From Nocardioides soli (GTDB lineage Bacteria; Actinomycetota; Actinomycetes; Propionibacteriales; Nocardioidaceae): DNA of 64,000 bases. Made by a program: the position numbers and the translations under genes. Positions 7,068 through 34,886 of this stretch are shown here, piece by piece. The notes beneath the pieces were generated by a model, which was not told the DNA's origin, did not search any database, and worked only from the letters and a program-made list of their open reading frames with translations. The DNA is taken from assembly GCF_014191495.1 (NCBI RefSeq), contig NZ_JACHWR010000001.1, positions 930,001 through 994,000 of the forward strand, given 5' to 3'. Each line of letters begins with the position of its first letter. The first letter of the stretch is position 1.

Positions 7068-8567
7068 CTACCGCTCCCAGACGCCCTTCACCACAACGTC
7101 CGCGCGCGGCCGCCCCGTCCACACCCGCACCGGCCGGATCAAGTCACGCAGCACCTCCCGCCGGTGCTCCACCGGCCGGTCATCCCACGACCCCAGCAGA
7201 TCCTGCGCGATCCCCACCGGATCCGACGGCCCCCGCCGCGCCGACACCGCAGCGTCCTCATGCGCGGCCTGCAACTGATCCCGCTTCTCCACCAGGCCCG
7301 CCACCGTCTTGGCGTAGACCTCCGGCGGCAGCGGCGCCGACGCGTTCGACAGGGCCAGCTGCTGCAGCTCGGCATCGACGCGCGCGACAGCCCGGGCGAG
7401 TCGGTCCGCCTCCGACCTCGAGGCGGTGACGCGGGCCTCGGCAGCCAGGGCGACGTTGCGCCGCTCGTCGACCTCGCCGGCGAGGTCGACGAGCCAGGCG
7501 TAGACCTTGTCCTCGACGTGCGACGCCATCACGTACCCGCCCTTGCACACGGCTGGGCCGATCTCCTTGCCGTTCTGGCACCGGTACTTGGGGACCCGAT
7601 AGGCGCCGAACTGGCCGGCGACCATCGATCCTCCGCACCGACCGCAGCGGATCAACCCGGAGAGCAGGTACTGCGACCGGATCGTCCGGGCCGGCCTCGC
7701 AGCCCTGAGTCGCCGGGCGTCGAGGTATGCCTGCCACAGCTCTTGGTCGATGACGGGCTCGTGGACGCCAGGATGCAGGGTCGGCTCGATCTTCCGGGCC
7801 CGGTCGCCGCCGGCGAGGAAGGACCCGGTCGCGAAGCCGGAGTCGAGGACGCGGCGCAGCGTACGGTCCGACCACGGCCCGGGGTCCTTCTTCCCGTACC
7901 CACCGACGGTCAGGTGGCCATGAGCGTTGAGCCACCGCACCAGCTGGTAGACGGACTCGCCGGCGACGTAGCGGCGGTACATGTCCGCGAGGACGGGGGC
8001 GGTGACCGGATTAGGAACGTGGAGCTTCTTCTCGCGGTCGTAGACGTAGCCGAACCGATCTTTCCCGGTCGGCGGCCGGCCGGCGCGAACCCGTGAAGCG
8101 TGGACCTCCTTCCACACCTCCCCGATGCGCTCGGCCTCGAACGCCTGGAGCTCGGCGAGCATCCCGCGGGCGAGCCGGCCGCTCGAGGTGGTGGTGTCGA
8201 ACTGCTCAGTGGCGGACTCGAGCCGGCCGCCGGCCTCTTCGACGCGGTCGATCGCGACGGCCCACCGGAGCCGGTGGCGTGCCGCGCGGGAGTACTTCCA
8301 GACGACGAGGACGTCGTACTCCCCCGCTTCGATGGCGGCGACGGCCTGGTCGAGGCGGGGCCACCAGGCGGAGCGGGCGCGGGATCCGGACTCGTCGATG
8401 CCTTCGAGCCAGCCGGCGATCTCGTAGCCGCGGGTGGCGGCATAGTCGATGATCGCGGTGCGCTGGACCTCCGGGGAGATCATCCCTTCACGTTCCTGGG
8501 AGACCCGCACGAGCCCGAGCGCCCTCGGTGGGGCTTCGGGGACGACGCGCAGCTGACGCCCGGTCAT
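7068..8567 (-). CDS. int: Large serine integrase
   Basis: 499 residues. N-terminal resolvase domain with the catalytic serine in LVRVS (Ser23), followed by the recombinase domain (GYVYDREKKL onward), a zinc ribbon (CGRCGGSM, then C and C at KYRCQ and AVCKG) and a long coiled coil (SRSEADRLARAVARVDAEL). ATG at 8567 places the resolvase motif at the usual distance; the open frame extends 5' as a shadow. It catalyses attP x attB recombination into the pilin-like gene. The stop is 27 bp from the attL core, the usual phage position. Confidence 0.95.
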   Translation of the reverse strand: MTGRQLRVVPEAPPRALGLVRVSQEREGMISPEVQRTAIIDYAATRGYEIAGWLEGIDESGSRARSAWWPRLDQAVAAIEAGEYDVLVVWKYSRAARHRLRWAVAIDRVEEAGGRLESATEQFDTTTSSGRLARGMLAELQAFEAERIGEVWKEVHASRVRAGRPPTGKDRFGYVYDREKKLHVPNPVTAPVLADMYRRYVAGESVYQLVRWLNAHGHLTVGGYGKKDPGPWSDRTLRRVLDSGFATGSFLAGGDRARKIEPTLHPGVHEPVIDQELWQAYLDARRLRAARPARTIRSQYLLSGLIRCGRCGGSMVAGQFGAYRVPKYRCQNGKEIGPAVCKGGYVMASHVEDKVYAWLVDLAGEVDERRNVALAAEARVTASRSEADRLARAVARVDAELQQLALSNASAPLPPEVYAKTVAGLVEKRDQLQAAHEDAAVSARRGPSDPVGIAQDLLGSWDDRPVEHRREVLRDLIRPVRVWTGRPRADVVVKGVWER

Positions 8568-8625
8568 TGCAGCGACGACGACCCGGCTACGGCGGATCGG
8601 TCCGCCACCCAACCCCGCGACCGAC

Positions 8626-8889
8626 TCATGCCGTCTCGTCCTCGTCGGCGGACTCGAACAGCCGATGGAGGTACTCCTCGTGGTTGGCATACCGCATGCC
8701 GACGACCACGCCCTGCCCGATGATCCCGATGCCCCCGACGATGCTCGCGAGCACCAAGATGACGGTGCCGATCGCTTGACCGTCCTCGGCTGCTGCGATG
8801 AGCCCACCGAGGATAGTCAGACCCACGCCAACGTAGATGTACGTCATCGGCGTCCCCGGCCTCGGCCGCAGGTCACCTGCTTCTCTCAT
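8626..8889 (-). CDS. Small membrane protein of the immunity region
   Basis: 87 residues with two membrane segments (YIYVGVGLTILGGLIAA and TVILVLASIVGGIGIIG) and an acidic cytoplasmic tail. Start at 8889 has AGGAG 8 nt upstream. It lies between the metalloprotease gene and the integrase on the same strand. Could act in superinfection exclusion; that is inferred from place only. Confidence 0.6.
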   Translation of the reverse strand: MREAGDLRPRPGTPMTYIYVGVGLTILGGLIAAAEDGQAIGTVILVLASIVGGIGIIGQGVVVGMRYANHEEYLHRLFESADEDETA

Positions 8890-8898
8890 TCCAGGCTC

Positions 8899-9363
8899 CT
8901 AGATGGTGATGGTCGCGAGCTGCTCGTCGAGGTACGCCCGCTCGCGGGGCGTGAGGGAGCTGAGCCGGACGGCGAGCGTGTCGTCGTCGACCCAGAGCTC
9001 CCAGGCTGCCTTCTCGTGGTCGGCCTGATGCCAGGCCAGCGCGTGCCCGATCCACCGGATGCTCGGCGCCAGGAGCCGGCCGACCTTGCGGTCGATGATC
9101 AGCTCCTCCCTCATCCGCCGATCCGGAGCGCACGGGCCCCGAACGATGTGCTGGGTCTCGTGGGCGATGGTGCACCGGCGCTCGGCCTCGTCGAGGCCGT
9201 TTGCGAGATACACCCGCCGCTCGTCGAAGCTGGTCAGCCCCCACTGCCCGTCCGGAAGGTCGTCGGTCCAGACCAGCCGCCAGTCGCGGTAGGTCCCGAA
9301 GACGCGCCACGGATGGTGCCGGTGGCGGCGGGGATCGCGGAAGACGTGGATGGGGTCGACCAT
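8899..9363 (-). CDS. ImmA/IrrE-type metallopeptidase
   Basis: 154 residues with the zinc-protease signature HETQH at residues 68-72 in IAHETQHIVRG, and an N-terminal region rich in aromatic residues as in phage ImmA-like proteins. Members of this family cleave or inactivate the neighbouring phage repressor. The repressor gene lies 46 bp upstream on the same strand, which supports that partner. A third zinc ligand is expected downstream (around residues 80-100) but cannot be assigned with certainty. Confidence 0.75.
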   Translation of the reverse strand: MVDPIHVFRDPRRHRHHPWRVFGTYRDWRLVWTDDLPDGQWGLTSFDERRVYLANGLDEAERRCTIAHETQHIVRGPCAPDRRMREELIIDRKVGRLLAPSIRWIGHALAWHQADHEKAAWELWVDDDTLAVRLSSLTPRERAYLDEQLATITI

Positions 9364-9409
9364 GACCCGGGACCGTAGAGCCGACCGCCGACACTCGCTG
9401 TCCGGATGT

Positions 9410-9880
9410 CTAGCGGGGCTCCATGTCGTCGGGGTCGTCCGGTTCGGGCTCCCCCGCGCGTTCGGCGTTTCGCTGGCGCTGCTGGTTTTTCGAGACCTTC
9501 CCGGTCGTACGCGCGGCTGACCGTAGTCCGGTCAGTGCAGGCGCGCTGGTGGCGGCGGTGTCTCCACCGTGCTCACCCCTCTCCTCTGCTCGTCGGAGGA
9601 TCTCCTTGATGAGCTCCACCTCGTCGAGTGAGCTGAGGGACGGCACCGCCGTCGGCCGCACCCGGGCCTCTTCCTCGGTCAGGAAGTCCGCCGCCACGAA
9701 TGCCTCAAGGATCGGGCGGCCGTAGGCACGAGCGAACGCTGCCACCTGCTTGGCGTCCGGCGACTTGATGCCGCCGTTCTTCCATCGCGCGATCGACGGC
9801 TCAGTGACGCCGACCTTCTGCGCGATGACGCGGTTGACCTCGCCGCTGCTCCAGCGTGCGACGTACTCGCTCCAGCTCAC
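9410..9880 (-). CDS. Prophage repressor, HTH type
   Basis: 156 residues with an Xre-like HTH at the N-terminus (VNRVIAQKVGVTEPSIARWK) and a charged, low-complexity C-terminus with no peptidase domain. It is divergent from the Cro-like gene at 10135 across 254 bp containing palindromes, the usual position of the lysogeny repressor. Absence of an autocleavage domain fits control by the ImmA-like protease next door. Confidence 0.75.
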   Translation of the reverse strand: MSWSEYVARWSSGEVNRVIAQKVGVTEPSIARWKNGGIKSPDAKQVAAFARAYGRPILEAFVAADFLTEEEARVRPTAVPSLSSLDEVELIKEILRRAEERGEHGGDTAATSAPALTGLRSAARTTGKVSKNQQRQRNAERAGEPEPDDPDDMEPR

Positions 9881-9929
9881 GGCATGACCGTATTGCGGGT
9901 TCGGGGCGCATCCACGTCCCCAATCATGC

Positions 9930-10045
9930 CTTGCGTTGACGCAAGTGCGCAGGTGGCGGCATTACACGCGTGTCTTTCTGCACGTCAGGAGCCATTCGGG
10001 CTTGCGCAAGTGCCGCGTTGCCAAACCGTGACCTTCGTGTATTGC
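9930..10045. promoter_or_regulatory. Immunity operator/promoter region with CTTGCG palindromes
   Basis: CTTGCGTTGACGCAAG (9930-9945) is a perfect 7+2+7 palindrome; CTTGCGCAAG (10001-10010) is a shorter palindrome with the same half-site. ACACGCGTGT at 9964-9973 is a third. A rightward promoter is likely at TTGCCA (10018-10023) and TATTGC (10040-10045), 16-bp spacing. The rest of the 9881-10134 gap holds no gene. These are probably repressor and Cro sites. Confidence 0.55.
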
Positions 10046-10134
10046 GTTCGCGCCAGTCTCGTGCGTATTGTTCACGCATTGCCGCAAGACAGCAGGTCAG
10101 CGGCCCAGACACGCAGAAGGAAGGAGGCGAGGTG

Positions 10135-10371
10135 ATGACCGCCGTTCTCCGTCTCAAGCTCGACCAGCTCGGCAAGATCCGAGGCTGGACCGGGCTCAAG
10201 ACGGACGCCGCGCTCGCCGCGGCCATGGGCATCGACGCGGGGAACCTCTCCCGCGTCCTCAAGGGCAAGCAGCAGCCCGGCCCCAAGTTCATCGCTGCCC
10301 TGTGCACGGCGCTCAAGGCCGACCTCGAGGACCTCTTCGAGATCGTCGACGACGCCGAGGACGTGGCGTGA
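10135..10371 (+). CDS. Cro-like HTH protein, first gene of the early operon
   Basis: 78 residues with one HTH (TDAALAAAMGIDAGNLSRVLKG), preceded by AAGGAGG. It is the first rightward gene after the operator region, the standard Cro position. GTG 3 bp earlier is an alternative start. The stop overlaps the next gene by one base. Confidence 0.7.
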   Translation: MTAVLRLKLDQLGKIRGWTGLKTDAALAAAMGIDAGNLSRVLKGKQQPGPKFIAALCTALKADLEDLFEIVDDAEDVA

Positions 10372-17274: not shown

Positions 17275-17701
17275 CCTCAACTCGGCCGAGACTGCCCACG
17301 TCGGCAAGACGGGTGGAGGGGGCGGCAAGTGGGTCGCCTACGACAGCCCGAAGCCGCCCGCGGTCGCGGACCACTACGCGTTCTGGGGTGACGCCCCGCC
17401 GACCCGCTCCGAGCGGTGTGCGTGGTGGGTTCGGCAGATCGAGCGCGGGTGGCGACCCAACCGGCGGATCGCCGGAGAGTGCTACGACTGCTCCGCCGAG
17501 TGGTACGGCGTCTACATCTGGGAGTACCTGAACGTCATCGCCCCTGCGCTGTCCAGTCCGACCGCACCCGAGTTGAGCGCCGACCACGCTCGCTGTCGGC
17601 GCTGCGGCGCGGTGGTTCACCTGCTGCTGATCGCGCACCACGACCGTGACTGCCCTGTCGCCACACCGACCGGTGCGTCGACGGGCGGCAACCCGACATG
17701 A
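17267..17701 (+). CDS. Hypothetical protein with zinc-ribbon-like C-terminus
   Basis: 144 residues. Aromatic-rich middle (WYGVYIWEYL) with CYDC upstream and CRRCG plus a late Cys-Pro downstream, spaced like a zinc ribbon. ATG at 17267 overlaps the previous gene by 8 bp. Confidence 0.45.
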   Translation: MADLNSAETAHVGKTGGGGGKWVAYDSPKPPAVADHYAFWGDAPPTRSERCAWWVRQIERGWRPNRRIAGECYDCSAEWYGVYIWEYLNVIAPALSSPTAPELSADHARCRRCGAVVHLLLIAHHDRDCPVATPTGASTGGNPT

Positions 17702-17799
17702 ACCCCTACCTCGGCCTCGCCATCATCCTCACCGCCATCGCCATCTCCTGGTGGGCCGCCGGCGGCTTCCGCAACCCACCAGGAGGAGACCCACGATGA
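17698..17799 (+). CDS. Small single-pass membrane protein
   Basis: 33 residues: one membrane segment (LGLAIILTAIAISWWAAGG) and a short Pro-rich tail. It overlaps the preceding stop by 4 bp and the RuvC start by 4 bp, so it is very probably translated. AGGAGG inside its 3' end serves the RuvC gene. Confidence 0.5.
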   Translation: MNPYLGLAIILTAIAISWWAAGGFRNPPGGDPR

Positions 17800-18311
17800 A
17801 CATCCTCGCCATCGACCCCGGCAACACCGAGTCCGCCTACGCCCTCATCCACGCCACCACCCACCGACCCATCCACGCCGCGAAGCTCCCCAACGAGCAG
17901 CTCCGCATCGGACTCCAACGCAACGCACTCGGCCAGGCCGCCGAGCACGTCGCGATCGAGATGATCGCCTCCTACGGCATGTCCGTCGGCGCCGACGTCT
18001 TCGAGACCTGCGTCTGGATCGGCCGGTTCGCCGAGTCCAGCCGACTCCGCACCGGCCACGAGCCCGACCTCGTGAAGCGCCACCCGATCAAGCTCCACCA
18101 CTGCCACTCCTCGAAGGCCAAGGACTCCAACATCATCCAGGCCCTCGTCGACCGGTTCGCGCCTGGCGAGCCCAACCGCGGGAAGGGCACCAAGGCCAAC
18201 CCGGGCTGGTTCCACGGCTTCGCCGCCGACATGTGGCAGGCCTACGCCCTCGCCGTCTACGTCGCCGACCAGCTCGAGGCGAGCCCAGCCGGCCATGCAG
18301 CGGGGTTCTGA
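17796..18311 (+). CDS. RuvC-like Holliday junction resolvase
   Basis: 171 residues with the RNase H-fold signature AIDPGNTESAY (Asp7), a second acidic strand VAIEMI (Glu55) and a late DMWQAYALAVY helix with the final Asp. Phage resolvases of this type trim branched DNA before packaging. Start has AGGAGG 7 nt upstream. Confidence 0.75.
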   Translation: MNILAIDPGNTESAYALIHATTHRPIHAAKLPNEQLRIGLQRNALGQAAEHVAIEMIASYGMSVGADVFETCVWIGRFAESSRLRTGHEPDLVKRHPIKLHHCHSSKAKDSNIIQALVDRFAPGEPNRGKGTKANPGWFHGFAADMWQAYALAVYVADQLEASPAGHAAGF

Positions 18312-19945
18312 TGGTCACCAACCTCGGCAACGCCACCGCCTACGTCGCCGGTACCGGCCACCGACCCCTCCCCAAGGCCGACGAGCACGGCTACCGCCGC
18401 GCCCACCAGCCACGCGCGAAGAAGCCCAGCGGCCTCGACTGGGACGCCCTCACCCCCCACTGCAAGACATGCGGGCAGAAGTCCGGCCAGCTCGACAACA
18501 ACGACACCTGCCCCACCTGCCGCGGCGACGCCCCGAAGACCACGCCGAAGACCGCCCGCCGACACGGCCCCTACCAGCAGCTCCCCGACGACGAGATCGA
18601 ACGCCGCTTCACCGCACCCGCCTCCGCACCCGACAACACCCGCCTCGGCGCCGACCTCGCCGACCTCGAAGCCACCGACCCGAAGGTCACCGCAGCCGCC
18701 GCAGCACTCGATGACGCCACCGACCGCATCACCCGCCCCGACGACCACGTCCACGCCGATGCTCTCCGCGTCGACGACACCCCAGAACTGCCCACGGAGG
18801 GTAAGCAGGGCCAGCCCACGACGCGGATTAGCGCACCGCGCGTAGCGACCAGCGCGGATCCAGCCGAGGCGGCTGGCGCTGGTTCCTCCACCGCCGAGAT
18901 GAAGGACCCGGCGGTCGCCCAGGAGACGCGCCCTGCGGCGACCGCCGGCCCGACCAACACCAGCCCGGCCTACACCCCCGAGGGCAACCTCGACGCCCAG
19001 ATCCAGCACGCCGCACGCGTCCTACGCGACACCGCCACCCACCACCACCCCGCCATCAAGCTGCTCCGCCTCAACGCAATCGCCGCGATCGAGGCCCTCC
19101 ACCTGTTCGTCGAGATGAACCACCCACAGACCCCCGCGCCGGCGCCCGCCCTCCCCCGTGACGGCGCCGGCGCGGGCCCCGACCGGCCGGCCGCCGACCC
19201 GGAAGGGGAAGCCGGACGGCGGCCGGCCGCCCGCCGCGCCCCACGCTCGCGCCGATCGAGCGCTGTCACCGTCGACGAGCAAGCCATCATCCGCGAGTAC
19301 AAGGCCGGCGACACCGCGCCCACGATCGCCCGCCGCCACGGCATCGGCCCGAAGCGGGTCCGCGACATCCTCGACCGCCACGGCATCGCACGCCGCGACG
19401 ACCGAGCCACCCACTCAGGCGGCCGCAACAAGCTCCACCTCACCGACCAGCACCGCGAAACCATCGTGCGCCGCTACGTCGTCGACCAGGCCGCCATCGG
19501 CAAGATCTCCCGCGACACCGGTCACGGACGCCACACCATCACGGCCATCCTCAAGGACGCCGGCGTCACCATCCGCCCAGCCGCGCACCTCGCCCGAGCA
19601 ACCGTCCTCACCGACACCCAGCGCGCCGAGATCGTCACCGCGTACATCGACGGCGGCGAGTCCAGCCACGTCCTCGGCACCCGGTACCGGATCCGCGCCG
19701 AGACCGTGCGCCAGATCGTCGTCGACGCCGGCTACCAGGTCCGGCCCAGAGGCGGCGAACCGGGCACCGACCGCCTGACGGCGCTCGGCGTGACCGCGGC
19801 CCAGGTCAAGGCATGGGCACTCGCCCAGGGGCTCATCGACCAGATCCGCACTGGTCGCGTCCCGGGCCGGCTCATCGACGCCTACGAGCAAGCACACCCC
19901 ACCACCACCGCAACACCCGACCAGTCAGGAGACACCGCAGCATGA
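18311..19945 (+). CDS. Multi-HTH DNA-binding protein with Lsr2-like C-terminus
   Basis: 544 residues. N-terminal zinc ribbon (CKTCGQ ... CPTCRG, residues about 54-77), long disordered linker, then three tandem HTH units (IIREYKAGDTAPTIARRHGI; VRRYVVDQAAIGKISRDTG; VTAYIDGGESSHVLGTRYRI). The last 40 residues (VKAWALAQGLIDQIRTGRVP, then LIDAYEQAH) resemble the Lsr2 C-terminal AT-hook-like DNA-binding domain. No Lsr2 oligomerisation domain is seen. Possibly a nucleoid-type silencer or replication initiator. Confidence 0.6.
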   Translation: MVTNLGNATAYVAGTGHRPLPKADEHGYRRAHQPRAKKPSGLDWDALTPHCKTCGQKSGQLDNNDTCPTCRGDAPKTTPKTARRHGPYQQLPDDEIERRFTAPASAPDNTRLGADLADLEATDPKVTAAAAALDDATDRITRPDDHVHADALRVDDTPELPTEGKQGQPTTRISAPRVATSADPAEAAGAGSSTAEMKDPAVAQETRPAATAGPTNTSPAYTPEGNLDAQIQHAARVLRDTATHHHPAIKLLRLNAIAAIEALHLFVEMNHPQTPAPAPALPRDGAGAGPDRPAADPEGEAGRRPAARRAPRSRRSSAVTVDEQAIIREYKAGDTAPTIARRHGIGPKRVRDILDRHGIARRDDRATHSGGRNKLHLTDQHRETIVRRYVVDQAAIGKISRDTGHGRHTITAILKDAGVTIRPAAHLARATVLTDTQRAEIVTAYIDGGESSHVLGTRYRIRAETVRQIVVDAGYQVRPRGGEPGTDRLTALGVTAAQVKAWALAQGLIDQIRTGRVPGRLIDAYEQAHPTTTATPDQSGDTAA

Positions 19946-20577
19946 CCGACACCCACGGCAGCATCGGCACCAAGGGCCTCGACGGCACCGGCTTCACCGA
20001 AGACCTCATCGGCGACCACTTCCACGGCGTCGGCACCCACATCATGGCCATCGTCGACCTCCAGGTCGTCGACAAGGCAGGCCCCAACCTCAAGGGCAAG
20101 CGGAAGGTCACCTACGTCATCGACGGCATCGAACCAGCCACCGACGACAACCTCGCCGAGCACCTCCGCGAGCTCCAGCGCACCGTCTACCTCAACCGGC
20201 AGAAGACCGGCGCCCAGGCCACCATCGACCAGGAGCTCGACGGCACCGGCGCCGAGCCGACCGTCGCCGGCGTGGTCGCCGCCGGCGCCGCCCACCGGCC
20301 GCACCCGTTCCTGCCCGTCGACGCCTCCCAGGACAACCCGATCTGCGACGTCTGCGGGCTCCTCGAAGCCGCACCCCGACACAGCGTCCAGGACCAGCTC
20401 CCCGACGGCGAAGGCGAGGAGCACGACCCGGACGGCGAGGAGCACGAGGACGACCTGGAGGGAGACGAGCCGCACGACGACGCGGAGCCCTGGGAGTACG
20501 AGGCCCCGGAGGGCCAGCTCCCCGCCACCGCGATCCCCGACCCCTTCACCACCCCCGAGCCCGACCCGGCCGCCTGA
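19942..20577 (+). CDS. Hypothetical early protein with acidic tail
   Basis: 211 residues. A folded N-terminal domain (HGVGTHIMAIVDLQVVDKAG, KRKVTYVIDGI) is followed by CDVCG and a strongly acidic tail, a layout seen in proteins that compete for DNA-binding partners. It is coupled to the multi-HTH gene and precedes the helicase. The following 213 bp (20578-20790) are C-rich with no gene seen. Confidence 0.5.
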   Translation: MTDTHGSIGTKGLDGTGFTEDLIGDHFHGVGTHIMAIVDLQVVDKAGPNLKGKRKVTYVIDGIEPATDDNLAEHLRELQRTVYLNRQKTGAQATIDQELDGTGAEPTVAGVVAAGAAHRPHPFLPVDASQDNPICDVCGLLEAAPRHSVQDQLPDGEGEEHDPDGEEHEDDLEGDEPHDDAEPWEYEAPEGQLPATAIPDPFTTPEPDPAA

Positions 20578-20790
20578 GACCAGCGCCCGGGGAGTCAAAC
20601 CCAGCCGGCCCGGCCCGCGACACCCGGAACCCGGCAGGCAAGGACGCCCACCAAGCCCGCGACCCCTTTCCCGCGGGCGGCGCACCTGCTCCCCGGGCGC
20701 ACCCCAGCACCACCCCGCAACACCGAGCACCACCCGCCGGACTCCCCCACCGCCGGCCGGGACACATCACGCCAGGCACGGAGGCACCGC

Positions 20791-22383
20791 GTGACCCACG
20801 ACGGACCACCACCCCGTCACCTCCACCCAGTGGACCCACCGTTCGACCCCGACTACGACGGCCGCCGCGCCCCCCAAGACCTCGGAGCCGAACGCGCCAT
20901 CCTCGCTGCCCTCCTCGCCCCCACCCGCGACCACGAAACCCACCCCGGCGAGCTCCTCGCCACCGAACTCGACCCCGACGACTTCTACCTCCCCGAACAC
21001 CAGCTCATCTGGGAGACCTGGCACCAACTCCACACCCGCGACGGCGTCCCACCCGACTCCGTCCTCCTCAACGAAGCCATCGTCCGCACCCGCGACGTCA
21101 AAGCCATCCGCGCCCTCACCGACATCGTCGCCGACCGCGCACGCGACCTCCCCAACGACACCCTCGCGCCCCAGCACGCCCGCATCGTCCGCGACACCGC
21201 ACGCCTCCGCGACGTCGACGAACTCGCCACCGGCCTCCGCCAGATCGTCAACAACGCCCGCATCGACCAGATCGACGCCTACCTCGGCGAAGCACTCCAA
21301 CGCCTCGACCAGACCGTCATGCGGTTCGGCGCCACCACCACCAGCGCCGCCTCCGGCTACAAAGACCTCTCCTGGGTCCTCACCGGCCAAGCACCCGAGA
21401 TCGAACCACCCCGCTGGGTCCGACACGACGCCGGCCACGCCCTCTTCTACGCCGGCAAGGTCAACGGCGTCTTCGGCGACCCCGAGACCGCCAAGACCTG
21501 GCTCGCACAGTGCGCCATCGTCGAAGCCCTCAACACCGGCGGCACCGCCGCCATGGTCGACGTCGACCACAACGGCGAGAACCACACCGCCGCACGCCTC
21601 CTCCTCCTCGGCGCCCACCCCGAAGCCATCGCAGACGGCACCCGCTTCCGCTACTACGACCCCGAAGACGGCGACCAGCTCCGCAACGCCATCACCGAGA
21701 TCACCACCAACGCCCCCGACGTGTTCCTCCTCGACTCCCTCGGCGAGGTATTCCCCATGCTCGGCCTCAACTCCAACGACGGCGACGAACTCACCGGCGG
21801 CCTCCGCCTCATCTCCCGCCCCGCCGACGCCGGCACCTGCGTCATCTTCATCGACCACCTCCCCAAGTCCACCGAAGCCCGCGCCACCGGCTTCGCCATC
21901 GGCTCAATCGCCAAGAAGCGCGCCGTCCGCGGCTCCTACATCCGCGCCGAAGAACGCATCAAGCCCGCCCCCGGCCAGGTCGGCAAGATCAGCCTCTTCG
22001 TCGAGAAGGACACCGCCGGCGAGCTCCGCAAGCAGATCCCCGGCGGGAAGTACCTCGGCACCTTCGTCCTCGACTCCCGCGAACCCCACGTCAGCCGCTG
22101 GGCCGTCGTACGCGAAGACGCCCCCACCGACGCCGACGGCCACAAGCGCTACACCCGCGTCATGGAGCGCATCTCGCGCTACGTCGAGGACAACGACCAG
22201 TGCACCGGCAACGAGATCAAGGACGCGATCGGCGGCAAGCCGACCATCGTCGCCGAAGCCATCAAGACCCTCGTCTCAGAGGGCTTCGTCTCCGTCATGA
22301 AGGGCCGCAACCGCAGCCACCTCCACCACTCCATCGCCCACTACCGAGAGGCCGAGGACGACCATGTCCAGCACCACGACTGA
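20791..22383 (+). CDS. Replicative helicase, DnaB/RepA-like
   Basis: 530 residues. DnaB-type N-terminal helical domain (APQDLGAERAILAALL), then a RecA-fold motor with Walker A GDPETAKTW (after GVFGD), Walker B DVFLLDSLGEV and FIDHLPKS. The C-terminal 90 residues form a separate winged-helix-like part. It probably unwinds phage DNA. GTG at 20791 starts just upstream of the conserved domain. Repeats that may be the origin follow directly. Confidence 0.75.
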   Translation: MTHDGPPPRHLHPVDPPFDPDYDGRRAPQDLGAERAILAALLAPTRDHETHPGELLATELDPDDFYLPEHQLIWETWHQLHTRDGVPPDSVLLNEAIVRTRDVKAIRALTDIVADRARDLPNDTLAPQHARIVRDTARLRDVDELATGLRQIVNNARIDQIDAYLGEALQRLDQTVMRFGATTTSAASGYKDLSWVLTGQAPEIEPPRWVRHDAGHALFYAGKVNGVFGDPETAKTWLAQCAIVEALNTGGTAAMVDVDHNGENHTAARLLLLGAHPEAIADGTRFRYYDPEDGDQLRNAITEITTNAPDVFLLDSLGEVFPMLGLNSNDGDELTGGLRLISRPADAGTCVIFIDHLPKSTEARATGFAIGSIAKKRAVRGSYIRAEERIKPAPGQVGKISLFVEKDTAGELRKQIPGGKYLGTFVLDSREPHVSRWAVVREDAPTDADGHKRYTRVMERISRYVEDNDQCTGNEIKDAIGGKPTIVAEAIKTLVSEGFVSVMKGRNRSHLHHSIAHYREAEDDHVQHHD

Positions 22384-22603
22384 CCACCTCGACGCCACCC
22401 TCTCAGGTGGTTCCCTCAGTGGTTCCCCAAGTGGTTCCCTAACCGGTCCCAGGGCATCCAGCGAGCAAGTGGTTCCCCGGTTCCCCTCTCCTCCGGAGGG
22501 GAACCACTTGCGAGCCCTCCGCGCGAGTGGTTCCCGTCGGCACGGGAACCGCCGGGACTCACTGCTCCGTGAGGGCGCGATCGGCCGCAAGGACGGTGCG
22601 TGA
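22364..22603 (+). CDS. Doubtful small ORF across the repeat cluster
   Basis: 79 residues, overlapping the helicase end and the next gene's start. The product is a low-complexity Ser/Gly run produced by the DNA repeats. Start and stop couplings are compatible with translation, but composition suggests the DNA, not the protein, is what is conserved here. Confidence 0.25.
   Translation: MSSTTTDHLDATLSGGSLSGSPSGSLTGPRASSEQVVPRFPSPPEGNHLRALRASGSRRHGNRRDSLLREGAIGRKDGA
22404..22550. repeat. Iteron-like GGTTCCC repeat cluster, candidate replication origin
   Basis: Direct copies of a 12-bp unit (A/C)AGTGGTTCCC(C/T) lie at 22404, 22417, 22429 and 22467, with a further copy near 22526. AAGTGGTTCCCC (22467-22478) has a perfect inverted copy at 22498-22509, and GGTTCCCCTC/GAGGGGAACC (22479-22505) and GGTTCCCG/CGGGAACC (22529-22550) form hairpins. 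Position right after the helicase gene suggests an origin or a regulatory site. Confidence 0.55.
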
Positions 22604-23298
22604 TGGTCGGCGCCCTCAAGGACGGGCCGTGCTCGTCGCGTGCTCATGGTCAGGCCGCGCCCGGCGGCGGGCCGTGCCCGCTGTGTGGCCGGCCTCGGTG
22701 CTCGGCGGCGGCGAAGACTCGGGCTGGTGAGCGGTGTCGGAAGAACCCGCACCCGGGCGCGTCGATCTGCACGAACCATGGGCTGACTGCTGCTGGTCGG
22801 GCGAAGGCGGCGGAGCGGCGGACGGAGGCGGCTGCGGAGGAGCTGCGGTCGCGGCTGATCTGGAACACCAGCGCGGCGCCAGTCAGCGACCCGATCGGGG
22901 AGTTGCAGCTGCTGGCCGGGCAGATGCGTCAGGCGGTGGATCTGCTCGGCGCGATGCTCGGTCCGGGTGACCCGTGCGAGTCGTGTGGGCGTGGGCCGTT
23001 GCCGTTGGACTCGCCGGCGGGTGTCGCGTGGTTGAAGCAGCAGCGTGAGCTGCGTGGGGTGTTGGAGGCGATGGGTCGTTTGGGGATCGCCAGCCGTGCT
23101 GTGGAGGTGCAGCAGGGTCAGGCGGATCTGGTGTTGGGGTGGTTGCGGGATGCGCTCGAGGCGGGCCGCGGCATGCCGGCCGGGAGCACGCCGGCGCAGG
23201 TGGTGGAGGTGGTGCTGGCTGCGTTCGTCGACGCAATGCGCCGCGGCCGCGGCGGGTCGGTCATCGCGGGCGAGCTCGACCAAGGGACCGCGTCGTGA
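22603..23298 (+). CDS. Phage protein with N-terminal Cys/His motif, unknown function
   Basis: 231 residues. N-terminus CGRPRCSAAAKTRAGERCRK then CTNHGLTAAGRAKAAERR, a Cys/His motif seen in many actinophage proteins, followed by DPIGELQLLAGQMRQAV and a long helical region. A small-terminase-like or DNA-binding role is possible but not shown. GTG one codon earlier is an alternative start. Confidence 0.5.
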   Translation: MVGALKDGPCSSRAHGQAAPGGGPCPLCGRPRCSAAAKTRAGERCRKNPHPGASICTNHGLTAAGRAKAAERRTEAAAEELRSRLIWNTSAAPVSDPIGELQLLAGQMRQAVDLLGAMLGPGDPCESCGRGPLPLDSPAGVAWLKQQRELRGVLEAMGRLGIASRAVEVQQGQADLVLGWLRDALEAGRGMPAGSTPAQVVEVVLAAFVDAMRRGRGGSVIAGELDQGTAS

Positions 23299-23459
23299 CC
23301 CGGCCGTTGACCGCGCGCCGGGTCCGCCGGGCTCGGCGGCTCATCGCCCGCGAGGCATGCCCAGCCCGCTGGGGCATCCGCCACCGCTGGGGTGGCATGT
23401 CCGGCCTCTCGGGTGCCGGGCTGTTCGTCAGGTGCCGGAACTGCGGGGAGGTCGAGTAG
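23295..23459 (+). CDS. Small Arg-rich protein
   Basis: 54 residues from GTG 23295, with RCRNCG near the end. Overlaps its neighbours by 4 and 1 bp. Function unknown. Confidence 0.4.
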   Translation: MTRPLTARRVRRARRLIAREACPARWGIRHRWGGMSGLSGAGLFVRCRNCGEVE

Positions 23460-24043
23460 TGGCGCTCTCCGGCTTCCGCGCCCAGGCGCATCCGCAGCAG
23501 ACCTCGCGACGCTGGCCGGCCGACGTCGACGAAGTGGACGACCGCGCGACGCACCCGCTCGACTTCGCCGACTTCAGCGACCGGTACGGGCCGTTCACGG
23601 TCGACGTCGCCGCCGCGGCCCACAACACGAAGTGCGACCGCTACTGGACCCGCAAGGACGACGGCACCGCTCAGGACTGGTCCGGAGAGCGCGTCTGGTG
23701 CAACCCGCCCTACTCCGACATCGCGCCGTGGATCCGGAAGGCATGGGCGTGCTGGGCGTCGACGTCGGGGATCACGATGCTGCTGCCGGCGAACCGGACC
23801 GAGCAGTCGTGGTGGCAGCTGATGGTCGAGCCGTACCGCGACCGGCCCGGGTCTCCGCTGCGGTGCGAGTTCCTGCCCGGCCGGATGAGGTTCCTCAAGC
23901 CCGGGCAGACCGCCGTCGGGCCGAACCAGCGGCCGCCGTTCGGGTGCGTGCTCCTGGTCTGGGACGCCGGCGTCAACGCCACGCTCACGTACTCGGCCGA
24001 CCGGATCCCGGCCGGCGGCCTGTTCGAGGAGGCCACGTCATGA
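23459..24043 (+). CDS. Phage DNA N6-adenine methyltransferase (Dam type)
   Basis: 194 residues, typical of the phage Dam family: TPxxF-like start replaced by THPLDFADFSDRYG, FTVDVAAAAHNTKCDRYW, the catalytic NPPYSDIAPWI motif and GMRF-like PGRMRFLKPG. It would methylate adenine in phage DNA, usually to evade restriction. GTG at 23459 overlaps the previous stop by one base. Confidence 0.85.
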   Translation: MALSGFRAQAHPQQTSRRWPADVDEVDDRATHPLDFADFSDRYGPFTVDVAAAAHNTKCDRYWTRKDDGTAQDWSGERVWCNPPYSDIAPWIRKAWACWASTSGITMLLPANRTEQSWWQLMVEPYRDRPGSPLRCEFLPGRMRFLKPGQTAVGPNQRPPFGCVLLVWDAGVNATLTYSADRIPAGGLFEEATS

Positions 24044-24339
24044 GCCGCCCCCTGCCGGTGTGCCCGGCGTACGACGTCTGGGGCGGCTACCGGCTCCGGT
24101 GCGTTCTTCCGGTCGGCCACGACGGCGACCACCTGGCGTCCGAGCTCGAGCCCGTCCTTAGTGGGGCCAGCGCTGACACTGGCCCTACCGAGACGGCTGC
24201 GGGGCCGGACGTCCGCACAGAGGCTTCGGTAGGGCCGCGCACTTCTCTCTCCTCCGGTGTCAGCGCCGAAGGTCCGTCGATGTTACCGGGCGCGAGACAG
24301 TCGCGGCTCGGACAGGTCCGCGACGGGAGTGGCGTCTGA
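24040..24339 (+). CDS. Small hypothetical protein with CPAYDVWGGYRLRC motif
   Basis: 99 residues. N-terminus has a Cys ... Cys/His cluster (CPAYDVW, LRCVLPVGHDGDH), the shape of a short zinc-binding unit common in actinophages. The C-terminal half is low complexity. Coupled to both neighbours. Confidence 0.45.
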   Translation: MSRPLPVCPAYDVWGGYRLRCVLPVGHDGDHLASELEPVLSGASADTGPTETAAGPDVRTEASVGPRTSLSSGVSAEGPSMLPGARQSRLGQVRDGSGV

Positions 24340-24719
24340 TGCCGATCCGTCCTGAGAACCGCGGCCGCTACCCCGCCGACTGGCCCGCGATCAGCCAGGC
24401 GATCAAGGACCGCGCCGGCTGGCGGTGCGAGTGCACCGGCGAGTGCGGCCGCCCCTACCTGCACCTCGACACCGACGACCGCTGCCGGAACCGGCACGGC
24501 GAGCCGGCGTACGGCACCGGCTCCCGCGTGGTGCTCACCACGGCGCACCTCGACCACACGCCGGAGAACTGCGACCCCGGCAACCTGCGGGCGATGTGCC
24601 AGGGGTGCCACCTGCACTACGACCGCGCTCACCACGCCCAGACCCGCGCGGCGACACGTCGCGCCGAGGCCGCCGCGCTGGCCGGCCTGTTCGACCTCGA
24701 CGTCCAGGAGACCCCGTGA
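24339..24719 (+). CDS. HNH endonuclease
   Basis: 126 residues with cysteine pair CECTGECG, the HNH core LTTAHLDHTPENCDPGNLRA and the distal CQGCHLHYD. Such enzymes nick DNA and often assist packaging, though here the gene is 5 kb from the terminase. Start overlaps the preceding gene by one base. Confidence 0.8.
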   Translation: MPIRPENRGRYPADWPAISQAIKDRAGWRCECTGECGRPYLHLDTDDRCRNRHGEPAYGTGSRVVLTTAHLDHTPENCDPGNLRAMCQGCHLHYDRAHHAQTRAATRRAEAAALAGLFDLDVQETP

Positions 24720-24720
24720 C

Positions 24721-24900
24721 TCACCCCAGGCCCAGCAGCCGCAGCAGGGCTGCGACGACACTCCCAGCGAACTCCGCTCGGTCTATCCACCGCTCGAGCT
24801 TCCTCACGGTCCGGGGGCTCTCCGGGCTGTTGTGCGGGATCCACTCCGCTACTCGGGTGGCGAACAGGTACAGGTCGGCGCGTGCACGTCGTATGGTCAC
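24721..24900 (-). CDS. Possible small minus-strand protein
   Basis: From GTG at 24900 a 59-residue product reads like a protein (DLYLFATRVAEWIPHNSPES, RKLERWIDRAEF, then a leucine-rich helix). The plus-strand frame over the same DNA is Ser/Arg-rich and looks like a shadow. No ribosome binding site is evident. Confidence 0.35.
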   Translation of the reverse strand: MTIRRARADLYLFATRVAEWIPHNSPESPRTVRKLERWIDRAEFAGSVVAALLRLLGLG

Positions 24901-24981
24901 GCATCTCGGGTGTGCGGCGTGGACCCGGTGGGCTGACGACGAGGCTCAGTGGACTAGTCCGGTTCGCGCGGCGGTGACCCG

Positions 24982-25510
24982 ATGAAGGCGTTGACGGTGC
25001 AGCAGCCGTGGGCGTGGGCGATCGTGCACGGCGGGAAGGACGTCGAGAACCGGACTCAAGCGTGGTCGTATCGGGGCCTGCTCGCCATCCACGCCGGTGC
25101 GCGCTGGTCCGATCGAGGCGGACGCTCAGGGCTCGTGTGGGACGCGCTGCGGGACCCGCTACGGCTGGCCGACCGGGGCGGTCACTGCGCGTGACGACCG
25201 GCGGCCCGGGTTCGACGTGATCCGCCCACTTGGCGCGATCATCGGCGTGGTCGACTTGGTCGGCGTGCACGCAGCGCAGTCGGTCGCCCGCTGGCCTGAA
25301 CAGCCCGCCTGCTGTGACTCGCGGTGGGCCGAGACGTCGTACGCCGAGCACGGCGGCCGCACCCGCCGCGACGTCGTGCACCTGGTGCTGGAGAACCCGC
25401 GGCCGCTCCCCGAGCCGATCCCGTGCAAGGGCCGGCTCGGGCTGTGGACGCCGCCGGCCGATGTGCTGGCGCAGCTGCTCGCTGACGCCGGATGGGAGCG
25501 CACCGAATGA
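24982..25510 (+). pseudogene. ASCH-domain protein with one frameshift
   Basis: The first 55 or so residues (MKALTVQQPWAWAIVHGGKD, ENRT, YRGLLAIHAG) are a textbook ASCH N-terminus. The rest of the domain (PLGAIIGVVDLVGVH, HLVLENPRPL, GRLGLW) continues in the next frame, so one base change in length is needed near 25155-25165. ASCH proteins bind RNA or modified nucleosides. The intact frame's stop overlaps the next gene's ATG, as expected for the original gene. Real damage or a sequencing error are both possible. Confidence 0.7.
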
Positions 25511-33233: not shown

Positions 33234-34886
33234 ATGGCGAGCAGGCGTGAGACCCGGCGCCTGCAGCGTCAGCTCGACGCGCAGCTGCGGAGGCTGACCG
33301 ATCAGGTCGAGCGGGACCTGATCCGTGCGTGGGCGATGGCGTGGGACGAGACGTCGACGGACCTGACGGCGCTGCTGGTCGACCTGCTGACCGCCGGCGA
33401 GCAGGTCACCGTGGCCCAGCTGCTGATGGCGACCCGGCTGCGGCGGGCGCTGGCCGAGGTCGCCGACCGGCTGGAGCGGCTCACGGCGTACGCCGGCGTC
33501 CGGGTCACCCAGGATCTGCGGCGCGTGGTCGACATGGCCGGCGGCGCGCAGGCCTCGATCATCGACTCCCAGCTCCCCTCGGGCAGCGGCTTGGTCGACC
33601 TGGAGTCGTGGGCGCGTGTCGACCCGCGGCAGGTCGAGGCGATCGTGGCCAGGTCGACGCAGCAGATCACCTCGCGGATGCGGCCGGTGTCGGCGTCGGC
33701 GTACGACGTGATGCGGCGCGAGCTGATCCGTGGCGTGGTCTCCGGGTCGAACCCGAGGGTCGTTGCGCGGCGGATGGTGGCCCGGGCGCGGGAGCCGTTC
33801 GCTGGCGGGCTGACGCGGGCGCTGACGATCGCGCGGACCGAGATGCTCGACGCGCACCGGGCCGGCGCCCGGGCCGGGCAGGCGCGGCACGCCGAGGTCC
33901 TGCGGGGCTGGATGTGGCTCGCGTCGCTGTCCACGCGGACCTGCCCGGCGTGCCTGGGCATGCACGGGCAGGTGTTCGACCTCGACGTGCCGGGCCCGGA
34001 CGGTCACCAGAACTGCCGGTGCGCGCGGATGCCCGTTGTGCGGCCGTGGACCGAGCTCGGGTTCGACGGGATCGAGGAGCCGGGCCCGTTGGCGCCGGAC
34101 GCGGACGGGTTCTTCGCCGGGCTGACCCCGCGGGAGCAACAGGCGATCCTCGGGCCGCGTGGCTACCAGGCGTGGCTGGCGGGCCGGTGGCCGCGGTCGA
34201 AGTGGGGCGTACGTCGCTCGAACGACGGGTGGCGGGACTCGGTGGTGCCCGGGAAGCCGCCGCGGCTGCCGGGCGGGACCGCTGGGCGGCCGCCGCTTCC
34301 GCCGGCTCGCGCGCCGCGCGGGCTCGACGACGATCCGGCCCAGCGCGCGGCGGACGCGATCATCGCGCGGGCGACGAACGCCGAGCCCGCGGTGACGAAG
34401 CTCGTTCAGGAGGTCGCAGCCACCGCGGGCGGGCGGCTGGAGCGGCTGGAGTTCCGGCTGAAGAGTCGGGCGTCGATCGTCGACAAGCTCACCCGCCCCG
34501 GCGTCGACCTCGCGGAGGCCGCCGAGAAGATCAAGGACTCGCTGCGCTACACGATCGTGATCCCGCGGCGGAAGTACGCGCGCGGCGGGCAGAGCGCCCG
34601 CGACGCGCTGGCCGAGGCCGGGTACGTGCTCGTCAAGTCACCGGCCGGCTGGCCCGGGGCGGGCTACCGCGGCGTCAACCTCGCTGTGCGGGCGCCCGAC
34701 GGGACCGTGTTCGAGGTGCAGCTCCACACCGCCGCGAGCCTGCGCGCCGCCGAGGCCGCACACCTGATCTACGAGGAGCAGCGGCGTCTGCCAGTCGGAT
34801 CGAAGCGGTGGCTGGAGCTGGAGGCGGAGATGGCGAAGATCTTCAACTCGGTGCCCTGGCCGCCCGGCCTGCCGCGGATAGACTGA
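33234..34886 (+). CDS. MuF-type head protein fused to a RelA/SpoT-like synthetase domain
   Basis: 550 residues. The MuF minor head domain covers about 160-270, with IARTEMLDAHRAG and the Cys motif TCPACLGMHG ... HQNCRC. After a Pro-rich linker (330-365), residues 400-525 match the RSH synthetase fold: FRLKSRASIVDKL (R408, K410, S411, K418), KDSLRY (D435, R438), GYRGVN (Y478), FEVQLHT (E494, Q496), then a helix with H510. All these correspond to catalytic positions of (p)ppGpp synthetases and toxSAS enzymes. MuF-fused toxins are known in temperate phages; activity here is inferred. Confidence 0.75.
   Translation: MASRRETRRLQRQLDAQLRRLTDQVERDLIRAWAMAWDETSTDLTALLVDLLTAGEQVTVAQLLMATRLRRALAEVADRLERLTAYAGVRVTQDLRRVVDMAGGAQASIIDSQLPSGSGLVDLESWARVDPRQVEAIVARSTQQITSRMRPVSASAYDVMRRELIRGVVSGSNPRVVARRMVARAREPFAGGLTRALTIARTEMLDAHRAGARAGQARHAEVLRGWMWLASLSTRTCPACLGMHGQVFDLDVPGPDGHQNCRCARMPVVRPWTELGFDGIEEPGPLAPDADGFFAGLTPREQQAILGPRGYQAWLAGRWPRSKWGVRRSNDGWRDSVVPGKPPRLPGGTAGRPPLPPARAPRGLDDDPAQRAADAIIARATNAEPAVTKLVQEVAATAGGRLERLEFRLKSRASIVDKLTRPGVDLAEAAEKIKDSLRYTIVIPRRKYARGGQSARDALAEAGYVLVKSPAGWPGAGYRGVNLAVRAPDGTVFEVQLHTAASLRAAEAAHLIYEEQRRLPVGSKRWLELEAEMAKIFNSVPWPPGLPRID
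34879..34884 (+). promoter_or_regulatory. -10 box of a leaderless promoter inside the late operon
   Basis: TAGACT overlaps the last codons of the MuF-RSH gene and lies 6 nt before ATG 34891. The same TAnnnT-6/7-nt-start arrangement precedes the lysogen-type genes at the right end of the prophage. No clear -35 is seen, which is common in actinobacteria. Confidence 0.5.

Follow-up and report, generated by a model that had tools for sequence, protein, structure and literature searches.

The window considered here, i.e. the entire 64-kb stretch of DNA analysed, contains a prophage with terminase, portal, Mu-F-like and tape-measure genes; a serine integrase gene lies at 7068-8807 on the minus strand. 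The C-terminal part of the Mu-F-like head protein (33234-34886, plus strand) weakly matches RelA_SpoT (4.3e-4, below the cut-off). A helicase gene at 20791-22383 (plus strand) encodes a protein with a DnaB N-terminal domain, a RecA-like core and a C-terminal winged helix (wHTH), which we propose to be an initiator, and a 147-bp array of short repeats, or iterons (22404-22550), starts 22 nt past its stop codon. About 0.9 kb past the array there is a gene for a Dam-type DNA N-6-adenine methyltransferase (23459-24043, plus strand; Pfam Dam, 2.1e-23), followed by an HNH endonuclease gene (24339-24719; PHROG 1571).

With its DnaB N-terminal domain and RecA-like core, the helicase is of the DnaB/RecA type. 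Its Pfam matches are to DnaB (2.1e-11) and, below the curated cut-offs, to RecA (2.4e-4) and AAA_25 (8.3e-4), and its PHROG match is to PHROG 19, DnaB-like helicase (3.5e-12); Pfam gave no match to a primase domain, nor to the DUF927 or Primase_Cterm/D5-type families. In an AlphaFold2 model (pLDDT 80), the C-terminal end forms a confident winged helix spanning residues 455-514 (codons 22153-22332, plus strand), with pLDDT above 90 in six of seven ten-residue blocks, helices at residues 455-467, 473-480 and 484-496, and strands at 500-504 and 510-514. In the model, helix 2 contains residue 477 and the recognition helix contains residues 484 and 488; these three residues correspond to alignment columns 601, 608 and 612, respectively. 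The best PDB matches to the model are DnaB proteins with TM scores of about 0.3, so the likeness to DnaB is one of domains and not of the whole fold; among the 50 PDB matches listed, the telling titles are those of DnaB/DnaC helicases and one RecA (rank 45), and entries titled only 'Crystal Form' are presumably DnaB. A profile search against the sequences of solved structures returned 0 matches at 0.01.

An earlier note on this DNA, made from the sequence alone, had reported a cluster of direct repeats, a perfect 12-bp inverted pair and two hairpins, and all three are borne out. Within 130 bp, the array contains five exact copies of AGTGGTTCCC and one near copy; five of the six copies are direct (four of them exact) and one is inverted. 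The first, GGTGGTTCCC (22406-22415, plus strand), has one mismatch, and the next two, both exact, follow on the plus strand at 22418-22427 and 22430-22439, the first three being spaced 12 bp apart, a spacing that corresponds to the 12-bp unit of the earlier note. The fourth (22468-22477, plus strand, exact) forms part of the left arm of a central hairpin, the fifth is an exact inverted copy (22499-22508, minus strand) and the sixth is exact (22526-22535, plus strand). The perfect 12-nt inverted pair is found at 22428-22439/22499-22510, and there is also a longer perfect pair of 14 nt at 22465-22478/22498-22511. The latter encloses a C-rich loop to give the central hairpin (22465-22511), for which alternative inner arms are available at 22479-22488/22496-22505; the arrays of relatives have hairpins too. 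The second hairpin (22529-22550) pairs GGTTCCCGT with ACGGGAACC around a 4-nt loop. When 22460-22550 is folded as single-stranded DNA both hairpins form, with a z of -5.0 versus dinucleotide shuffles.

Elsewhere in the 64 kb there are no exact copies of AGTGGTTCCC and six scattered copies with one mismatch, and the array accounts for five of the 11 exact copies counted across the 5.8-Mb genome. The array maximum, five copies of one 10-mer per 150 nt (very low-complexity 10-mers being excluded), compares with a maximum of three in the real window outside the array; when the window was dinucleotide-shuffled 100 times, the maximum was two (93 times) or three (seven times).

Position and layout of the array in related loci

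Helicase relatives were found on four IMG/VR contigs, one of which (L009) carries the window gene itself, identical in sequence, two of which (L010 and L011, 63% identical) have a AGTGGTTCCC array at the same place as in the window, and one of which (L012, 54% identical) keeps the window layout with AGTGCGTCCC as its unit. Wider searches supplied 16 loci on genome contigs and, of 297 on viral contigs, the best 80, giving, with these four and a plasmid locus (L069), 101 loci; at E <= 1e-20, relatives are present in 18 of 394 genomes of the class, the window genome included. The 96 loci with at least 500 nt of 3' DNA, among which are L009 and many near-identical sequences, were scored for copies of an 8-mer in 250-nt segments. 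By the end of the helicase match, i.e. the wHTH end, at least four copies are present in 92/96 and at least five in 57/96. The remainder of these longer loci reaches the two levels in 19 and 10 cases, respectively, several of which come from segments at the edge of the array itself; fewer than four copies by the helicase end were found in L077, L079, L080 and L166. When non-redundant loci (<93% mutual identity) were recounted, 54/57 had at least four copies and 41/57 at least five, versus 7/57 and 1/57 far from the array in the same loci. In a second non-redundant set, the array was found in 35/45 loci versus 10/45 elsewhere, with fewer than four copies in 10/45. The earlier note had made its reading dependent on close relatives keeping the repeats, and the first of these non-redundant counts favours that reading.

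The module recurs in small plasmids and in dozens of phages. Among named phages, the array lies at the 3' end of the gene in Microcystis phage MinS1, Streptomyces phage Dagobah and Verrucomicrobia phage P8625, and no array was seen at the helicase gene of Dulem virus 38 or Microbacterium phage Hendrix. The MinS1 locus (L167) looks GC-rich by eye and combines an Lsr2-family gene with a helicase/array module that resembles the modules in actinobacterial elements; MinS1 is on record as a Microcystis phage, and its host assignment may merit a second look. In three loci (L047, L054 and L059) a Prim-Pol is fused to the same helicase core and the array is of the same kind. Two close copies of AGTGGTTCCC occur in 24 viral contigs, with an inverted unit within 480 nt in 14 and none in 10, some of the latter having, by eye, coding-like repeats unrelated to the helicase. 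A Klebsiella phage match (H15, E 0.7) proved to be a stretch without annotated genes and, by eye, with no such array.

By eye, the arrays listed typically show two to four direct iterons and, past a spacer, one further iteron, a C-rich hairpin and iterons in inverted orientation. A hairpin score of at least 10 was obtained for 32 of 47 array segments versus 5 of 141 control segments. Many arrays form strong hairpins around a C-rich loop, as might be expected of an element that acts, and is selected, at the RNA level, i.e. a terminator, an attenuator or a structured RNA. By contrast, an Rfam scan of 20000-25000 gave no match, there is no T-run terminator in 22200-22800, direct copies are kept outside the hairpin, and the orientation of the units relative to the gene varies (198 on the coding strand and 68 on the other across 48 loci), such that selection as RNA appears extremely improbable.

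The position of the units bears on another proposal, i.e. that the repeats reflect protein sequence, either as a low-complexity tail of the helicase or as part of an overlapping ORF. In 15 of 48 non-redundant loci all the units are inside the helicase ORF, which is in its favour, but in 32 they all lie past the stop codon (one locus is mixed), and in 14 of the 15 in-ORF loci the units occupy more than one frame or orientation. The proposal is contradicted by these counts, and we regard its probability as negligible. It is thus the DNA, and not the protein, that is conserved. In the window, the 79-aa ORF read from the sequence over the array (22364-22603, plus strand), which gave no Pfam or PHROG match at 0.001, is probably incidental. 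The earlier view that the DNA itself is the selected element, and not this ORF, is upheld by the relatives, which keep the place and layout of the array and respell its unit.

Unit spelling and the helicase winged helix

Most units have a frame in common, A[CG][CT]-NNNN-CC or near, around a variable 4-nt core. After 5 of 105 loci had been dropped for having <200 nt of 3' DNA, 25 unit spellings were assigned across 93 of the remaining 100, with seven left unlabelled. A set of 48 rows, which excludes the unlabelled loci, L170, L069 and rows at least 93% identical to a kept row, was used to build a maximum-likelihood tree from just the RecA part, on which the spelling changes at least 28 times. 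The unit labels and core numbering were set after inspection of the data, so that the 25 spellings, the pair and column comparisons, the initial counts of Glu and Arg residues given below (17 and 31 loci) and the tree results are exploratory.

Closely related pairs of loci illustrate how the changes are distributed. The helicases of L102 (unit ACCTCGTCC) and L105 (unit ACCCTTTCC) share 92% identity across the RecA part and 75% across the wHTH, the changes including helix 2 and the recognition helix, and in L123, L108 and L112 the differences are confined to the region from helix 2 through the end of the recognition helix. Restricting the comparison to RecA parts at least 55% identical gave 317 pairs, of which 260 differ in unit and 57 do not. 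Across these pairs, differences at columns 608 and 612 (residues 484 and 488) are those most associated with different units, and 13 of the top 20 unit-associated columns are in the wHTH and seven in the RecA part (61 and 194 columns examined, respectively, 255 in total).

The association is clearest for units with a CG core, i.e. with CG at core positions 2-3. By Fisher tests in which ancestry is ignored, Glu at column 601 (residue 477) is present in 15/17 CG-core loci versus 0/31 others, L086 and L127 being CG-core exceptions without Glu, and Arg at column 612 (residue 488) is present in 16/17 versus 4/31. A later set, labelled using a fixed unit pattern, comprised 48 non-redundant loci of 179 new ones (131 near-identical loci being dropped), 47 of which were fetched after the rule had been formed; L015 was obtained earlier, and the counts were therefore also made without it. 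The counts cover labelled loci (24/47 without L015, 25/48 with it), the 23 unlabelled loci being left out. Without L015, and again ignoring ancestry, Glu601 is present in 6/7 CG-core loci versus 0/17 others (p 5e-5) and Arg612 in 6/7 versus 6/17 (p 0.07); with L015, the values are 6/7 versus 0/18 (p 4e-5) and 6/7 versus 6/18 (p 0.03). The Glu rule, as a sequence association, is thus confirmed on new loci, while the Arg rule is not firmly confirmed. The later set includes an exception, L263, with a CG core (ACCGCGCCG) and Arg/Ser at the two columns.

Core bases 2 and 3 are treated separately in a more detailed rule; since it was formed after the result for the new loci, its figures on them are not an independent test. 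C at core position 2 occurs with Glu601 (15/19 versus 0/29; new loci 6/7 versus 0/18), T at core position 3 with Ala, Val, Leu, Ile, Met or Thr at column 612 (14/16 versus 1/32; new loci 4/11 versus 0/14), and G at core position 3 with Arg or Lys at column 612 (18/21 versus 11/27; new loci 9/10 versus 7/15). When ancestry is taken into account using five independent pairs on well-supported branches, Glu changes as predicted in an average of 4.7 pairs and never in the opposite sense (p 0.0625), and Arg in 4.4 as predicted and 0.1 opposite (p 0.125), on a tree whose bootstrap is unsettled and in which two long branches meet. In a scan of all columns for association with each core base, some in the RecA part equal or exceed those of the wHTH, the top column for core base 3 being in the RecA part, which is what shared ancestry would give. 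We propose that residues 477, 484 and 488 are specificity positions of the wHTH, and the covariation makes this domain of the adjacent helicase the likely binder of the array. The binder, the covariation and the recurrence of the module all go beyond what the earlier note had noticed.

Proposed origin function and rival explanations

The helicase gene and the array are also present in two small plasmids, pKRAD02 (12.9 kb) and p-XQ-29-C (7.9 kb), and Pfam scans of all of their annotated proteins (16 and 9, respectively) revealed no known initiator family besides the AAA_25 protein. The p-XQ-29-C units are ACCTGCCC, and the C terminus of its helicase aligns poorly with the wHTH. In pKRAD02 (L070), a terminase-small-subunit-like gene (901-1212; Terminase_7, 3.6e-7) hints that the element may be a phage-plasmid or a remnant of one.

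wHTH domains are often regulators, that of the window helicase matches a MarR-like PHROG (1.1e-5), and the array sits between two genes. It may thus be considered that the wHTH acts on the array as an autoregulatory operator, controlling the downstream genes or its own operon, with the origin elsewhere. Arguing against an operator are the position of the arrays, past the helicase gene or within its 3' end, the lack of a promoter-like site in 22200-22800 by a consensus scan of limited value for a GC-rich host, the confinement of the exact unit to the array in the window, and the occurrence of the module in small plasmids without another recognised initiator; overall, we consider regulation of this type unlikely. 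Repeat arrays can also serve partition, and pKRAD02 has a ParA-type gene beside a gene with a ribbon-helix-helix match that is below the cut-off, which would fit a centromere-like partition or incompatibility site on a phage-plasmid, with the helicase or some other protein as its binder. The ParA-region genes, however, are at 9104-10275, distant from the array at about 1.8-2.0 kb, and the unit covaries with the helicase wHTH; we therefore judge a role in partition to be very unlikely.

By contrast with these proposals, the array is probably a phage origin, a reading favoured by the replicative type of the helicase, the presence of iterons in cis at its gene, the Prim-Pol relatives with the same kind of array, and the plasmids that lack a match to another initiator. 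We think it likely, with good though incomplete confidence, that this 147-bp segment is the iteron array of a one-protein phage replicon and is read by the C-terminal wHTH of the helicase. The features established directly, i.e. the array, its place, its kept layout, the respelling of its unit and the association of the spelling with wHTH residues, are those on which this reading builds. The earlier note had preferred a phage replication origin or initiator-binding region, and this remains the best-supported reading, given, at the level of sequence, an array that is kept in place and respelled together with the wHTH.

When 4 kb is compared with 4 kb, GC skew in the 64 kb makes its largest upward step at 22401. 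Across 17501-22500, left of the array, GC skew is strongly negative (to -0.36 per 500 nt) and AT skew positive, both ending abruptly at the array. GC skew had been suggested as a check on origin location: the step coincides with the array in the window and recurs in close relatives, but it is not general, being upward in 24/43 relatives overall (p 0.18), and was rejected as a general sign of an origin. Near the array there is no AT-rich unwinding element, with at most 40% AT per 60 nt. As the skew sign is not general and an AT-rich element is absent, origin activity is something that we infer.

As to mechanism, the wHTH would bind the direct iterons and the inverted iterons flanking the C-rich hairpin, as the covariation suggests. 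Assembly of the helicase on the resulting nucleoprotein may then open or extrude the hairpin region and load the helicase, after which priming would start replication. In some relatives the fused Prim-Pol could prime; for the DnaB_N type of the window, the host primase or another phage protein would presumably do so. Specificity is proposed to be set by the 4-nt core of the unit, with residue 477 (helix 2) changing with core base 2 and residue 488 (recognition helix) with core base 3.

Comparison with known replication systems

The closest parallels for an initiator that reads repeats beside its own gene are SaPI Rep/ori and SCCmec Cch2, the latter with a putative origin, for which recognition by the helicase C-terminal domain of iterons directly downstream of its own gene is described (PMC7581432). 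The window shares with these systems short iterons directly downstream of a helicase gene, and 54/57 non-redundant relatives have an array at this place, which in 15 of 48 loci is inside the 3' end of the ORF; from the covariation, the C-terminal domain would be the iteron reader. By contrast, the SaPI Rep/Cch2 helicases are described as being of the DUF927 or Primase_Cterm/D5 type (PMC7581432), whereas those studied here are of the DnaB/RecA type; because Pfam gives DnaB, RecA and AAA_25 only, the window helicase is not classed as a SaPI Rep. A code linking unit and residues is not among the features described in the portion of that source considered (PMC7581432).

In the P4 alpha protein, a winged-helix domain binds the origin repeats and the same protein unwinds and primes (PMC4234260). 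A winged helix is the predicted reader of the repeats here too, but P4 alpha has a Toprim-type primase, where the proteins studied here have none (window) or a Prim-Pol (L047, L054 and L059), and its helicase class differs from the DnaB/RecA type. That source also describes pRN1 ORF904 and phage BIP-1 as having a Prim-Pol/helicase/wHTH protein and a required stem-loop just 3' of the gene, a proposed origin, and states that such a stem-loop origin is proposed for phages too, with the bound motif said to be unknown (PMC4234260). The architecture and the stem-loop 3' of the gene are shared, but the pRN1 type has an SF3 helicase and a single large stem-loop without iterons, in contrast with the iterons and DnaB/RecA-type helicase described here. 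At RSF1010 oriV, as outlined there, RepA, RepB' and RepC act, and RepC, not the helicase, reads the iterons (PMC4234260); the combination of iterons, hairpins, a helicase and priming at hairpins is similar, whereas the use of three proteins with RepC as a separate iteron reader is not.

Covariation of an initiator DNA-binding domain with its origin has a precedent in PLE RepA_N/ori of Vibrio satellites, where the two covary and are swapped together (PMC8263062, PMC7145576), and where the authors think that the origin-directed nuclease Odn is the likely selector of the swaps (PMC8263062). The PLE system differs in that the initiator is of the RepA_N type, binds DNA through an N-terminal domain and is not predicted to act as a helicase. 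AICE RepAM, a predicted rolling-circle initiator with DUF3631 (PMC3218068), was considered and set aside; DUF3631 was not found in the window helicase. The differences from the known systems lie in the helicase class, in the exchangeable N terminus, and in how extensive and how readable the covariation is. No description of the helicase/array family was found in the literature searched, which left most subscription papers outside its scope, where one may exist; the main text of the Dagobah paper contains no mention of a helicase, iteron or replication origin (PMC7650747).

It may be that the helicase gene and array of the window represent a widespread and apparently undescribed class of one-protein replicon, present in phages, prophages and small plasmids, actinobacterial and other. 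We see the arguments for this proposal as evenly balanced. Its members would combine a DnaB/RecA-type helicase, bearing an exchangeable N terminus (DnaB_N or Prim-Pol) and its own iteron reader, with an origin in cis, the iterons of which have been repeatedly respelled via a few recognition-helix changes, such that C at core position 2 goes with Glu477, and G or T at core position 3 with Arg/Lys488 or a small or aliphatic residue 488, respectively. If this is true, the origin sequence would be predictable from the protein, and the respelling may stem from incompatibility of coresident elements or from an Odn-like origin-directed attack. The analysis provides a probable origin and initiator for phages and plasmids in which the helicase gene bears no annotation beyond 'AAA family ATPase', 'RadB-like' or 'primase/helicase'. 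The loci also offer over 20 naturally occurring pairings of wHTH and iteron, some near-identical outside the likely contact residues, which makes it testable how an initiator changes its origin specificity and why mobile elements respell their origins so frequently.
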